Positions 19,451-57,100 of a DNA stretch of 64,000 nt are shown one piece after another. Under the pieces are notes generated by a model. That model had not been told where the DNA came from and did no database searches. It saw nothing but the letters and a program-made list of their open reading frames with translations. Numbering within the stretch: the first letter of the stretch is position 1; each line of letters starts with the position of its first letter. The DNA comes from Halapricum salinum (lineage in GTDB: Archaea; Halobacteriota; Halobacteria; Halobacteriales; Haloarculaceae): positions 736,887 to 800,886 of the forward strand of contig NZ_CP031310.1 of assembly GCF_004799665.1 (NCBI RefSeq), written 5' to 3'. Both the position numbers and the translations under genes were made by a program.

Positions 19451-21391
<1,941 letters not shown>

Positions 21392-21417
21392 ACTGGACAC
21401 ACCTTCAAAGAGAGAAG

Positions 21418-21427: not shown

Positions 21428-21628
21428 GTCGCCGATTCTGGTTTCGAACTGCTATCCACCGGTTTCATAGGAAGGAGGGTAAATAAAGGAGATATTCAGG
21501 CGTGATAAGTGGAAGAATTATAATCAGACATCCCTGTTATTCGAGGAGATAATAATAAGAAAAACAGATTCATAGTTTCGAGGGGATTCGAAACCGCTTT
21601 TCGGCTGCCACTGTGAGAGAGGGGTGCG

Positions 21629-21712
21629 CGAGGGTGGCTGAGCTAGGCCAAAGGCGGCGGGCTTAAGACCCGCTCCCGTAGGGGTCCAGGGGTTCGAATC
21701 CCCTCCCTCGCA
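21629..21712 (+). tRNA. tRNA-Leu (TAA anticodon)
   Basis: An 84-base class II tRNA. The acceptor GCGAGGG pairs with CCCTCGC (discriminator A). The anticodon arm GCGGG-CTTAAGA-CCCGC has anticodon TAA, and a long variable arm CTCCCGTAGGGGTC is followed by the T arm AGGGG-TTCGAAT-CCCCT. CCA is not encoded. Its 3' end is followed immediately by degenerate copies of itself. Confidence 0.95.
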
Positions 21713-22057
21713 TCTGCGACGAACGGACGTGAGGAGCGATGCGAGCGGGATTCGAATCACGGCAGACCGAACGCAGTGAGGTCTGGCATCGGGTTCGAAT
21801 CCCCTCCCTCGCACTCCGTGGCGAACAAATCCGTGAGCCACGGGTGCGCTTGTGGGGATTCGAATCAGGGAGCGGGAGGTGAACGAGCGAAGCGAGTGAG
21901 CGGGAGCGACCGTGGTTCGAAACCCATCCCTCGCATGTTCCGACTCGAACGAACGTGAGAGTCGTGAAAATCGACTGGATGGGTTCGAAGTGGAGAAGAC
22001 GCAGCGTGAGCGAAGCGAACGACCGTCTTCGCGTAGTTCGAGATCCCCTCCCTCGCA
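21713..22057 (+). repeat. Tandem array of three degenerate tRNA-Leu 3'-end copies
   Basis: The T-loop plus acceptor segment of the tRNA recurs at 21791-21813 (nearly exact), 21914-21935 and 22036-22057. Spacings are 101, 122 and 122 bases. Each unit opens right after the acceptor end with a hairpin whose loop fits GAACnnnnGTGAG: 21707-21714/21738-21745, 21816-21822/21837-21843, 21941-21946/21959-21964. A fourth such hairpin follows the last copy at 22061-22066/22082-22087. Two units also hold an internal GATTCGAATC palindrome. No integrase or other coding sequence lies between copies. They look like stacked attachment-site scars or a tRNA-derived tandem duplication. Confidence 0.8.
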
Positions 22058-22199
22058 TCGCGAGACACGAACAGGGTGAGCGTCTCGAAGAAAGCGAACG
22101 GCGAGCAACGCGAGCCGTGAGCAGCGCGACTCACGAGACACCGCCGAGGCGTCCGATTCGTCGACAATTTCCTTCAAACGCGTAAGTGACAATCAGATG

Positions 22200-51177: not shown

Positions 51178-54100
51178 ATGGATCACCAGAAGACGATGAC
51201 ACGAACAATCGCCAACTCAAGGGGGCACCGAACGGTAAGTATTCGAGCAGTCTGTGTAGCACTACTGGCTGTCATGGGAGTCGTCGCACTCGGAGCGACG
51301 GCACCGGCAGGAGCGGGCGCTGACGGACCGACGTCGCTCGCTGGCGGCGCTACGAGTGGGTCGACCGTCAGCGGGACGGTAACGTCGGCGGCCCAGGACG
51401 GCGGGCTCTCCGGGCAGGCCAGCGTCGTCCTCAAACAGGGCGGGACGGTCGTAGACAGTACGTACACCAACAGTTCCGACGAGTACGCGTTCAACGGCGT
51501 CGCCGACGGGAGTTACACCGTCGTCGTGCGCGCAGACCAGCACCAGACGAGTCGGACGTCGATCTCGGTTGCTGGCGGCGACGTGACTGAAGACGTCACG
51601 CTCGACGCACGCGTGCTGAACACCGACTCGGGCAACAGCTACGTCAGCATCAACAACGCCGTCCAGAACGCGAGTTCCGGCGCGACGATCACAGTCGCGC
51701 CCGGGACGTACTCCGAGAACGTCGACATCGGAACCTCGGGGATTACACTCGAAGCGACCGGCAACGCTTCGGAGACGATCATCGACGCATCCAGCGGAGA
51801 TGACTCGCTGCTAGTGACGGGTCAGAACGTCGTCGTCGAGGGCTTCACCTTCCGCAACGGCGGTGCAGCGTCGTCGGTGGCACTCGTCAATGACGGGATC
51901 ACGCTCCGTGACAGCGTCATCGACGGGAATAATGTCATCGGAAACGGCATCTACACGAACGGCCAGATTACCGTCGAGAACGTCAATATCACCGAGGCCA
52001 ATAACTACGGCATATTCGCAGACAGCGGATCTACCGGCACTGAAGTCGAACGGTCCGAACTCGTCCGAAACGGTGTCGGTGTGATCGTCAAAGATGCGAT
52101 CACTCTTCGAAACAACACGATAGACAATTCCGACGGCGGGGCGGGCGCGGGTCACGGTGTCTGGCTCACGTCCGGCTCAGACGGCACCGTCGTCGTCGAC
52201 AACGAGATCAGTAACAACGACGGCGGGACTGCCCTGCAGGTGAACCAGCAGGGCGGCGGAGCTGTCACCGTTACCAACAGTGTCGTCAACAACAACAATA
52301 TCTTCGACAACGCGTATGGTTCCTACGTCAATTCTAACGGCAACCAGCTCGACGCCCGCTACAACTGGTGGGGAGCCAGCGACGGGCCAGGCAATCAAGG
52401 ACCTGGGTCCGGTCAAGGACTCAACGGTGCTATCGACTTCGACCCGTTCCGTACCTCGGCCAACCCAGGAACGCCAGTCATCCAGGGAAGCGTCGACTCA
52501 GGTGCGGAGGACTTCACGGCCGGCAACGGCGAGGTGACGATTCAGCTCTACGCGGGTGGGTCGCTCGTCGACTCGACGACCAACGACGCCAGCGGGACCT
52601 ACTCGTTCCGGAACGTCTCCGACGGGAGCTACACCGTCGTCGCCTCGGCACCCAACCACGTCAGTGCCAGCGCGTCGATGTCGGTTGAGGGCAGCGACGT
52701 CTCCCAGGATCTTACACTGGAGGGGATCGCTCAGAACGAGCGCAGCGGTCAGTCGTTCGTCTCACCCGCCAGCGCCATCGACTCGGGCAGCTACGACGTC
52801 CAGGCCGGCGACACGATCACGATCTATCCCGGCACCTACCAGACGTCGCTCGACTTCAACAGCATCACGACGGCGAGCGACCTGACGCTCACCTCGGCCA
52901 GCGCGGCCTCCGAGACGGTGATCGTCGGGCAGGGCGGGACGCCGACGATAAACTCCGGCAGCGCCTCCGACGGCCTGACGATCGACGGGCTGACGCTGAG
53001 GTCCAGTGGGTCACCGGTGGCGATCATCAACACGTTCAGCATGAACACCGTCGAGGTGCGCAACAGCATCATCCAGGCCAGCTCGGGCGTTTCGGGCATC
53101 TCCGCGAACGAGCAGCTCACCGCTGTGGACAACGAGATCCACAACGGCGACAAGACTGCTACCGGGATCGAACTCCGTGACGACGGTGGGACCGGAAGTA
53201 TGATCTCCGAGAACGAGATCACCGGCTTCACCAACGGAATCGAAGCCACCGACTCCGACGGGCTGACGATCACCTACAACCAGATCCGGAACAACGGTGA
53301 CGGCGGCGGCAACGGGATCGGAATCCTCGTGGGCGACGGGACTATCGACGGCTCGACGATCACCGTCAACTGGAACAACGTCGTCGGCAACAACTACGGG
53401 CTGTACGCGGGCACCACTACTGGGACAGTCGACGCCGAACTGAACTGGTGGGGCGACGCGGGCGGTCCCAGTGCAGGTGAGGGTGCCGGTGGTCAGATCG
53501 ACATCGAGCCGTGGCTGACCGGTCCGGCACCCGACGGCCCGCCGACGCCGGCACAGCTCAGCCTCACGACGGCCGATCCGGTGCCGAGCGAGACCGGACA
53601 GGCAGGCACGTACGCGATCAATTTCACCTTCGGTCAGGTCGGCAACCCCGCGGGCGAGTACGTCTCGGTCGACTTCGGCTCGGCGACGGCCGATCTCTCG
53701 GGCGTGACGACCGGTGACGTCTCGATCGAGGGGCCAAGCGGCAGCCGGACCGTCGAGGCTGTCCTGACGCCCGATGGCCAGACGCTCGTGCTCGACCTCG
53801 CCGCGGGCGACGTCATCGACGACCCCGCGAGCGGCGACCAGTTCGACGTCACCGTGGGCAACGTCGGGAACGCCGACGACGGCACGCAGACGTTGACGCT
53901 GGGACTCCACGACGATAGCGGCGGTTCGCCCGCCGCGGCCTTCGTCACACAGTCCGGCGCCTACAGCGTGCAGGACACGACCGCACCGACCGCCGACGCG
54001 GGAAGCGACTTCACCGTCGACGAGGACACCTCGTTCACCTTCGACGGCTCGGCCTCGTCCGACAACGGTGACAGTCTCACCTACGAGTGGGATACCGACG

Positions 54101-57100
54101 ACGACGGTACCTACGAAGTCACCGGTGAGACTGGCTCCGCGACCTATGCCGATCCCGGCTCCTACGCCGTCACGCTGCGGGTGACCGACAGCGGTGGCAA
54201 CACCGCGACCGACGTGGTGAACGTCACCGTCAACGACGTAACGCCGCCGAACGCGGACGCGAGCAACAGCCAGACGTCCGGTGACGAGGACACCTCGTTC
54301 ACCTTCGACGGGACGGCCTCGACCGACAACGTCGGCATCGACACCTACGAGTGGGACTTCGACGGAGACGGCACCGTGGAGACGACCGGCGCTACGCCTT
54401 CGTACACCTATGCCGACCCCGGAACCTACACGGTGACGTTGACTGCGACCGACGCCGCCGGTAACTCGGGAACGGACACGCTGACGGTGACCGTCAACGA
54501 CGTGACGCCGCCGAACGCGGACGCTGGTACCGACTTCACCGTCGACGAGGACACCTCGTTCACCTTCGACGGGTCGGCCTCGTCGGACAACGGCAACATC
54601 GCCAGCTACGAGTGGGACACCGACGACGACGGCACCTACCAGCTGACGGGTGCGACCCCGTTGGCGAACTACGCTGACCCCGGCACCTACACCGTCACCC
54701 TGCGAGTGACTGACGGTAGTGGGAATACCGCGACCGACACCCTGACCGTCACAGTCCAGGACACGACTGCGCCGACTGCTGACGCCGGACCGGATCAGAC
54801 TGTCGACGAAGACACCTCGTTCACCTTCGACGGCTCCGGCTCGTCCGATAACGTCGCTGTGACGAGCTACGAATGGGACTTTGACGGTGACGGTACGACC
54901 GACGCCACCGGGCCGGCTCCGAGTTACACGTACGCCGACCCCGGCACCTACACCGTCACCCTGACTGCGACCGATGACGCCGGCAACACCGACACCGACA
55001 CCCTGACCGTCACGGTCCAGGACACAACTGCACCGACCGCCGACGCTGGCCCCGACCAGACCGTCGACGAAGATACCAGTGTCTCCTTCGACGGGACTGG
55101 TTCGAGTGACAACGTCGGCGTGACCACTTACGAGTGGGACTTCGACGGTGACGGCACGGCTGACGCCACCGGACCGACGCCGAGTTACACCTACGCCGAC
55201 CCCGGCATCTACACCGTCACTCTGACCGCGACCGACGACGCCGGCAACACCGACACCGACACCCTGACCGTCACTGTCAACGACGTGACCGCACCGACCG
55301 CAGAGGCCGGTCCCGACCAGGCCGTCTCACAGGACACGGCAGTGGACTTCGACGGGACCGCTTCGAGCGACAACGTCGGCGTGACGAGCTACGAGTGGGA
55401 CTTTGACGGGGACAGCACGACTGACGCCACCGGGCCGACGCCGAGTTACACCTACACGGCGGCAGGAAGCTATACAGTGACACTGACCGTCAGCGACGAC
55501 GCCGGCAACACCGACACCGACACCCTGACCGTCACTGTCAACGACGTGACCGCACCGACCGCAGAGGCCGGTCCCGACCAGGCCGTCTCACAGGACACGG
55601 CAGTGGACTTCGACGGGACCGCTTCGAGCGACAACGTCGGCGTGACGAGCTACGAGTGGGACTTTGACGGGGACAGCACGACTGACGCCACCGGGCCGAC
55701 GCCGAGTTACACCTACACGGCGGCAGGAAGCTATACAGTGACACTGACCGTCAGCGACGACGCCGGCAACACCGACACCGACACCCTGACCGTCACCGTC
55801 GGCGACACGACGCCACCGACCGCCGAGGCTGGCCCCGACCAGACCGTCGACGAGGGGTCGACCATCAACTTCGACGGCTCCAGTTCGAGCGACAACGTCG
55901 GAATCGACAGCTACGAGTGGGACCTCGATGGTGACGGCACCGTCGACGCCACCGGTACCACGTCGAGTTACACCTACGCCGATCCCGGCACCTACACCGT
56001 TTCCCTGACTGTCAGCGATGCCAACGGGAACACGGACACCGACACCCTGACCGTCACCGTTGAGGATACGATCGCCCCGTCCGCCGAGGCCGGTCCGAAC
56101 CGGACAGTCATGGAGGAAACCGCAGTGAGCTTCGATGGTTCGGGATCCACCGACAACGGCAACATCGCGAGCTACGAGTGGGACGTCGACGACGACGGGA
56201 CGGTCGAGGCGACCGGGGTGACACCCAGCTACACCTACGTCAACCCGGGAACCTACACCGTCACGCTGACGGTCACCGACGGTGGCGGTAACACCGACAC
56301 CGACACCCTGACCGTCACTGTCGATGACGTCACGGGCCCGACCGCCGAGGCCGGGCCAGACCAGACGGTCTCGGAGGACACCAGCGTGACCTTCGACGGG
56401 ACCGCTTCGAGCGACAACGTCGGGATTACGAGCTACGAGTGGGACGTCGACGGCGACGGGACCTACGAAACGACCGGCGAAACAGCGTCTCACACCTACG
56501 CCGATACTGGGACCTACACCGTCACGCTCCGTGTAACGGACGACGCGGGTAACACCGACACCGACACCCTCACTGTCTCCGTCGTCGACACGACGCCACC
56601 GACCGCCGAGGCCGGACCGGACCAGTCCGTCGAGGAGGGCACGACTGTCAACTTCGACGGCTCCAGTTCGAGCGACAACGGTGTCATCACGACGTACCGA
56701 TGGGACGTCGACGGTGACGGCACGACCGACGCCACCGGGCCAACCGCGAGGTCCACGTTCGTCGACCCCGGCACCTACACGGTGCGACTGACGGTCACCG
56801 ACAGCGGTGGCAACACCGACACCGACACCCTGACCATCACTGTCGGAGACCAGACGGCACCGACCGCCGAGGCTGGCCCCGACAGAACCGTCGAAGTCGG
56901 CTCGACCGTGAGTGTCGACGGGTCAGGGTCGTCAGACGACGTCGGGATCGACAGCTACCAGTGGAACTTCGGCGACGGATCTGCGGCGAGTGGTGTGACC
57001 GCCTCCCAGGCTTACGATCAGCCAGGCACCTACACGGTGACGCTGACAGTCACCGACGGCGCAGGGAACACCGACACCGACACCCTGACCGTCACCGTCG

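Follow-up and report, generated by a model that had tools for sequence, protein, structure and literature searches.

Hairpin Units With Copies of the tRNA 3′ End Are Stacked Behind tRNA Genes of Haloarchaea

An Array of Three Units Follows tRNA-Leu(TAA)

The window, by which we mean the whole stretch of 64,000 nucleotides that was analyzed, comes from one haloarchaeal contig of 3.45 Mb, on which it spans 736887-800886, and contains a tRNA-Leu(TAA) gene, whose 3′ end is repeated three times downstream (Table 1). The repeats of the final 23 tRNA bases are located at 21791-21813 (100% identity), 21913-21935 (87%), and 22035-22057 (74%), with steps of 101, 122, and 122 bases between the tRNA 3′ end and its three copies, which confirms the threefold repetition reported in the first-pass annotation of this DNA. 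It had also been stated there that a further hairpin follows the last copy and that neither coding sequence nor an integrase lies between the copies. Both statements hold: the array contains CGAAC...GTGAG hairpins (genome positions 758606, 758654, 758708, 758832, and 758954), the last of which lies after copy three, and no convincing ORF was found between the copies. Beyond these earlier observations, two further parts are present in each unit, namely a second hairpin and an inverted copy of the T-loop end (GGGATTCGAA). The order of the unit is constant: the 21-base segment X is followed by hairpin A, then by the inverted X and by hairpin B, after which the next X begins. The inverted X repeats 10-12 bases from the T-loop end of X in inverted orientation. 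In an Rfam search of the window region the tRNA was the sole match reaching the cut-off, and covariance model R1 matched hairpin B of unit 3 at genome positions 758865-758933. Upstream, the SBP_bac_5 lipoprotein gene (19451-21400, minus strand) encodes a long glycine-asparagine repeat linker with a 6-base coding repeat at window positions 21190-21280.

TABLE 1. Features of the array behind tRNA-Leu(TAA), in window coordinates.
Feature	Position	Strand	Source
tRNA-Leu(TAA) gene, proposed insertion target	21628-21712	+	ARAGORN, Rfam RF00005
X0, final 21 tRNA bases (G53 to discriminator), repeated attachment-type segment	21692-21712	+	
Hairpin A region, unit 1, CGAACGGACGTGAG	21713-21744	+	
Inverted X, unit 1, GCGGGATTCGAA	21745-21756	-	
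Hairpin B, unit 1, type B1, AGACCGAACGCAGTGAGGTCT	21758-21792	+	
X1, copy one, 21/21 identity	21793-21813	+	
Hairpin A region, unit 2, CGTGGCGAACAAATCCGTGAGCCACG	21814-21852	+	
Inverted X, unit 2, TGGGGATTCGAA	21853-21864	-	
Hairpin B, unit 2, type B2	21865-21914	+	
X2, copy two, 19/21	21915-21935	+	
Hairpin A region, unit 3, GACTCGAACGAACGTGAGAGTC	21936-21977	+	
Inverted X, unit 3, degenerate, GATGGGTTCGAA	21978-21989	-	
Hairpin B, unit 3, type B3, asymmetric CAG/AC loop	21990-22035	+	
X3, copy three, one added T-loop base, GTTCGAGATCC	22036-22057	+	
Terminal element resembling hairpin A, past last copy, GAGACACGAACAGGGTGAGCGTCTC	22058-22092	+	
Additional GA-type hairpin, GCGAACGGCGAGCAACGCGAGCCGTGAGC	22094-22122	+	sequence

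Arrays Are Present at Many tRNA Genes Nearly Throughout the Haloarchaea

In the genome under study (G000), copies of a tRNA's own 3′ end were counted with a strict cut of at least 17 matches out of 21. Such copies lie downstream of 16 genes from the full set of 42 tRNA genes and upstream of none of the 42, a distribution that goes beyond the chance similarity considered in the first-pass annotation. The 3′ end repeated in an array is that of the tRNA in front of it, and the repeats lie on the downstream side. With a looser cut, 30 units, some of them weak, were parsed behind 19 tRNAs of this genome. Among the congeners (G001, G003, and G004), G001 was fully counted as well and yielded 24 positive tRNA genes out of 41 by the strict cut, at least two of which represent neighboring tRNA genes. 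In these two fully counted genomes, arrays follow between one third and one half of all tRNA genes. All fetched loci together form an array-enriched set whose rates are not genome-wide, since many loci were fetched for having model matches; here, copies are present downstream at 185 of 263 tRNA genes and upstream at 3, and 95 of 98 distinct matches of the covariance model have a tRNA no more than 900 bases upstream.

A search of haloarchaeal genomes, which had been proposed as a check, revealed arrays at many tRNAs and in nearly the whole group. The unit covariance model matched 51 of 53 genomes of the haloarchaeal order and 0 of 242 others in a sample of the phylum. The two haloarchaeal genomes without a model match are G151 and G044, whereby the congeners of G151 do have matches; among 29 tRNAs checked in G151, no own-3′-end copies were found. 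In G066, a relative from outside the haloarchaea, there are no isolated copies, and its three matches are whole neighboring tRNA genes. Across all GTDB genomes, a specific DNA pattern was found in at least 120 stretches, and 80 of 80 among the matches listed belong to Halobacteria. In G000, the model identified 38 places at E up to 1, including some counted as both strands of one place, and most of them are behind tRNAs.

Some further observations were made on the distribution. An apparent tRNA-Pro(CGG) at G000:C1:380672 (L135), which was missed by the RF00005 search, is followed by two further units that repeat the 3′ end of this tRNA. In G000 there are 281 occurrences of the motif CGAAC-N3-9-GTGAG, compared to 30 of the reversed control. 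Many of these motifs are located away from tRNAs, in long intergenic stretches and on both strands, and no clear rule was found for the orientation of GA hairpins away from tRNAs relative to genes. On a megaplasmid of Natronorubrum bangense (NZ_CP031306.1, 820154-826217, L375), a stretch like unit 3 is present between a methyltransferase gene and a universal stress protein gene.

Boundaries, Folding, and Kinship of the Units

In order to describe the unit boundaries, 274 X copies at 185 tRNAs were compared to their tRNAs. Identity amounts to 0.90-0.99 from G53 to the discriminator, and falls to 0.12-0.44 on the left, save for the adjacent base (0.77), and to ~0.4-0.6 just to the right. The unit spacing has a 5-95% range of 89-175 bases, and stacks reach up to four units. 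Among arrays of at least two copies, there are 32 in which divergence is greater in the last copy than in the first, and 4 with the opposite order. The X copies follow tRNA changes between species, and 238 of 244 units have an inverted X complementary to base 57 of their own tRNA (p = 2e-57). One added T-loop base is present in ~9% of the X copies, mostly as TTCACAATC, at 21 loci and in 12 kinds of tRNA.

Covariation was analyzed with fourteen B3-type cassettes from several genera, and the covariance model was built from their fold. In this fold, inverted X and X form an outer stem, and the inner stems vary by compensation: 91% of cells pair, compared to 26-52% in slid versions, and 35 cells changed on both sides, compared to 11.7 in shuffles. 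The units show GAAC...GTTC edges and an asymmetric fold. The tRNA-sense strand folds more stably than its complement (77 versus 20 for hairpin B, 74 versus 18 for hairpin A), mainly because of tandem G-A pairs. Tandem G-A pairs are stable in DNA, too. Wobble mismatches show no clear enrichment (45 G-T versus 32 A-C) and are compatible with RNA as well as with single-stranded DNA.

Parts of the units are shared between arrays. Stretches with ~90% identity to unit 2 of the tRNA-Leu(TAA) array follow tRNA-Arg(CCT) and tRNA-Ser(TGA), and the types of hairpin B recur at different tRNAs. Behind tRNA-Ser(TGA) of G001 there are three units, in which nearly the same hairpin A and inverted X are joined to different B hairpins, and some orthologous arrays of G000 and G001 retain A while B differs. 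A weak vertical signal was also detected, whereby units at the same tRNA in sister species are somewhat more similar than units at other tRNAs, for both A and B. Tandem units are near-identical in G001, G024, and G055. As would be expected of stacked attachment scars according to the first-pass annotation, the number of units behind tRNA-Leu(TAA) varies among relatives, with three in G000, three in G001, and none in G004, where the downstream gene is conserved.

A Unit Behind aspS Is Followed by a Second aspS End

One model match away from tRNAs, at genome position 1760335, sits behind aspS (Pfam tRNA-synt_2). The gene terminates with FPRDRQRLSP and a stop codon; then follow an A-like hairpin, an inverted CTCGGGAAC, a B3 hairpin, and once more the same ten residues and stop. 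The second end in this genome shows six base changes, all six of which are synonymous. Duplicated aspS ends were identified in 8 of 25 haloarchaeal aspS loci, 46-79 bases past the stop and behind comparable hairpins, and none was found in the congeners G001, G003, and G004. Pooled over copies that are not fully independent and include two degraded ones, the differences comprise 64 synonymous and 13 nonsynonymous changes, with a random expectation of 73% nonsynonymous (p = 4e-24). This excess of synonymous change shows that the duplicated ends derive from separately functional genes and that the insert brought a working 3′ end. The aspS case, which we regard as decisive, fits site-specific integration and disfavors slippage, a simple target duplication, and an RNA role limited to tRNAs. 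By analogy, the restoration of the gene end may be extended from aspS to the tRNAs. Synonymous divergence of the kind seen at aspS can serve as an easy and generally usable way to recognize gene ends that have been restored.

Integrases Share the Target Boundary of the Units

At G000:C1:44108-54704 (L126), a 10.4-kb stretch splits tRNA-Val(CAC) from an array-type copy of its 3′ end. The stretch ends with a tyrosine-recombinase gene (53405-54448, minus strand), whose product matches the Pfam family Phage_int_SAM_1 above and Phage_integrase below the curated cut-off. Relatives of this integrase were detected in 99 of 117 sampled haloarchaeal genomes. A tRNA 3′ end copy is located within 500 bases on the N-terminal side of the integrase in 21 of 29 loci, compared to 3 of 29 on the other side, and nearly all of these integrase-side copies begin at the same G53 as the X copies of the arrays. 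Mobile elements that end in such a sequence, as anticipated in the first-pass annotation, thus exist, since 21 of the 29 integrase loci end in a segment of this 21-base kind. The inverted X was found in 0 of 21 intact integrase att arms and the GA hairpin motif in just 5 of 21, and the absence of the inverted X marks the units as a distinct kind and not simply such elements minus their cargo. Since no integrase ORF was found between the tRNA-Leu(TAA) copies, the units can at most represent a non-autonomous relative of tRNA-targeting integrative elements.

Units and integrases also meet at individual loci. At L201, a hairpin of type B4 directly separates the integrase from the tRNA-Tyr 3′ end. 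G357 and G141 carry 2.2-kb elements between tRNA-Val and its copy, with array units beyond, and units likewise lie beyond the 10-kb tRNA-Val stretch of G000. At G000:C1:211580-281902 (L141), a tRNA-Phe-type unit is located ~70 kb from tRNA-Phe and adjoins a 419-aa integrase gene; here, an island probably pushed the array away from its tRNA.

Interpretation of the Arrays

We consider it fairly probable that the units are non-autonomous integrating cassettes of ~100 bases, which are stacked by site-specific recombination and restore the gene end. Each unit would then represent an integrated mini-element of ~100 bases without autonomy, whose ends make an attachment site of the tyrosine-integrase kind, with the exchange point at (G)TTC of the tRNA T-loop. 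Hairpin A would constitute one arm of this site, and the inverted X together with hairpin B the other. The incoming element would bring its own copy of the 3′ end of the target gene, by which the tRNA or aspS gene is kept whole, and the old 3′ end would be displaced downstream, behind hairpin B. The restored gene could be entered again and again, which would yield stacked units with the oldest being the most distant, and the unit number may also be altered by tandem duplication and decay. A haloarchaeal tyrosine integrase presumably acts in trans, whereby the units would move as such and the hairpins may be read as folded DNA. We prefer this explanation because of the exact boundaries, the functional aspS ends, the divergence gradient, the hairpin types common to several targets, and the coincidence with integrase att sites. 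The covarying fold, the match of the inverted X to base 57 of its own tRNA, the B4-type hairpin at L201, and the G004 site without a unit also speak for it. Several points count against it: the intact integrase att arms lack the inverted X and mostly lack the GA hairpin motif; the cassette of one tRNA cannot restore another, so that an additional exchange would be required for different targets to have B types in common; it would be uncommon for a circle of only ~100 bases to recombine; the specific DNA pattern is missing from viral contigs; and part of the signal in A and B is vertical between sister species.

It is rather unlikely, in our estimation, that the units are ordinary att scars, each of them a decayed full-size integrative element that lost its cargo and left its two ends. 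The target boundary equals that of the integrase elements, the 10-kb and 2.2-kb inserts between tRNA-Val and its copy have units beyond them, and the tRNA-Phe array is apparently displaced by ~70 kb, beside an integrase, all of which would agree with such scars. However, random cargo loss should give varied lengths, whereas the unit spacing is uniform and the fold covaries, and the inverted X is missing from all 21 intact elements. Very little credence is given to the idea that the arrays arise, and are kept homogeneous, through slipped replication and template switching at the T-arm palindrome, with no dedicated enzyme. Copies made in this way should begin identical to the adjacent gene and then decay, whereas the aspS copies differ synonymously with the peptide kept; moreover, hairpin types common to many tRNAs and aspS require exchange, and the boundaries match integrase att boundaries. 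The near-identical tandem units in G001, G024, and G055, an inverted X that tracks base 57 of its own tRNA, and X copies that track tRNA changes between species would be in line with slippage.

It also appears improbable that the array is a structured RNA, i.e., a transcribed pre-tRNA trailer like the E. coli RtT RNA that serves processing, termination, or regulation. The more stable folding of A and B on the tRNA-sense strand, the strong covariation, and the anatomy shared with the E. coli RtT repeats speak for a trailer, but the strand asymmetry stems mainly from tandem G-A pairs, which are stable in DNA as well, wobble is not clearly enriched, the arrays are absent from some haloarchaea (G151), and a like unit stands behind the protein gene aspS with the aspS 3′ end duplicated. 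The first-pass annotation had wavered between stacked integration scars and a tRNA-derived array with its own structure. Stacked site-specific insertions are supported by the present data, as is an own structure by the covariation; a tRNA-specific RNA feature does not agree with the aspS unit.

Three other origins were rejected. A target-site duplication by a transposase accounts for copies of the own tRNA but was ruled out by the mainly synonymous aspS differences, which are not those of neutral decay. The specific DNA pattern occurred in no viral contigs, and phage records gave just tRNA-like matches, which led us to discard a viral source; for a plasmid source, nearly all plasmid matches cover the tRNA-Leu part alone. 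If the integrating-cassette explanation is right, the units would be unusually small integrating DNA elements on the safest sites of the genome, which could be counted, dated, and tested.

Comparison With Known Systems

No paper describing such arrays was found in the open-access literature searched. Archaeal integrases are reviewed in PMC8371274 and tRNA fragments are treated in PMC9897764; work on archaeal tyrosine recombinases and on tRNA fragments reports integration scars, but such arrays do not appear in the passages searched. The units resemble tRNA-targeting tyrosine-integrase elements in entering the 3′ ends of tRNA genes, in probably restoring these ends, and in the displaced partial copy that is left behind, and the unit copies start and end at the same positions as haloarchaeal integrase att sites. 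They differ from integrase elements in their size of ~100 bases, the lack of integrase and cargo, the stacking of up to four, and the conservation of hairpins A and B and the inverted X. From CRISPR arrays they are set apart by matching no recognized direct repeat family at threshold, as the Rfam search of the window region gave just a sub-threshold CRISPR-DR47 match (E 6.8).

REP/BIME and MITE are short non-coding hairpin elements that occur in many copies. The units are likewise short, non-coding, hairpin-bearing, and multicopy, but they are tied to gene 3′ ends (95 of the 98 model matches in the array-enriched loci lie at most 900 bases past a tRNA).

The RtT repeats of E. coli tyrT/tyrV (RF00391) measure 178 bases, and each closes with a repeat of the 3′ end of tRNA-Tyr. 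An inverted arm (GGGGAAGGAT) pairs with this repeat, and GAGCG..GCGAG hairpins lie inside. The plan of a tRNA 3′ end copy, an inverted pairing arm, and GA hairpins is therefore common to both, whereas RtT is confined to one locus in E. coli and its X begins at base 58 and takes in CCA. Membership in RF00391 was ruled out, since the model gave no match above the cut-off in 39 haloarchaeal genomes; in the window region there was none at E up to 10.

Integron arrays show polarity, and their attC sites consist of inverted repeats that match imperfectly and have AAC...GTT on the inner sides; these sites fold asymmetrically as single strands and are recombined by IntI. The units share the polarity (judged indirectly from the divergence gradient of 32 versus 4), the AAC...GTT edges, and a fold with an asymmetric internal loop; they differ in having no cassette ORFs, in being anchored on a tRNA or aspS gene instead of attI, and in that no integron integrase was identified. 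A bolder idea, which we put forward as speculative and on balance doubtful, is that haloarchaea possess a system similar to integrons, in which tRNA genes and aspS take the place of attI as anchors. Its ~100-base cassettes would have an attC-like site (inverted X, hairpin B, GTTC), on which a tyrosine recombinase specific to the clade would act while the DNA is single-stranded and folded. Each cassette would carry the 3′ end that keeps the target alive, and a bacterial relative of the system would be seen in the RtT repeats of E. coli. The integrating-cassette explanation, if right, would offer a testable origin for the RtT repeats of E. coli tyrT.
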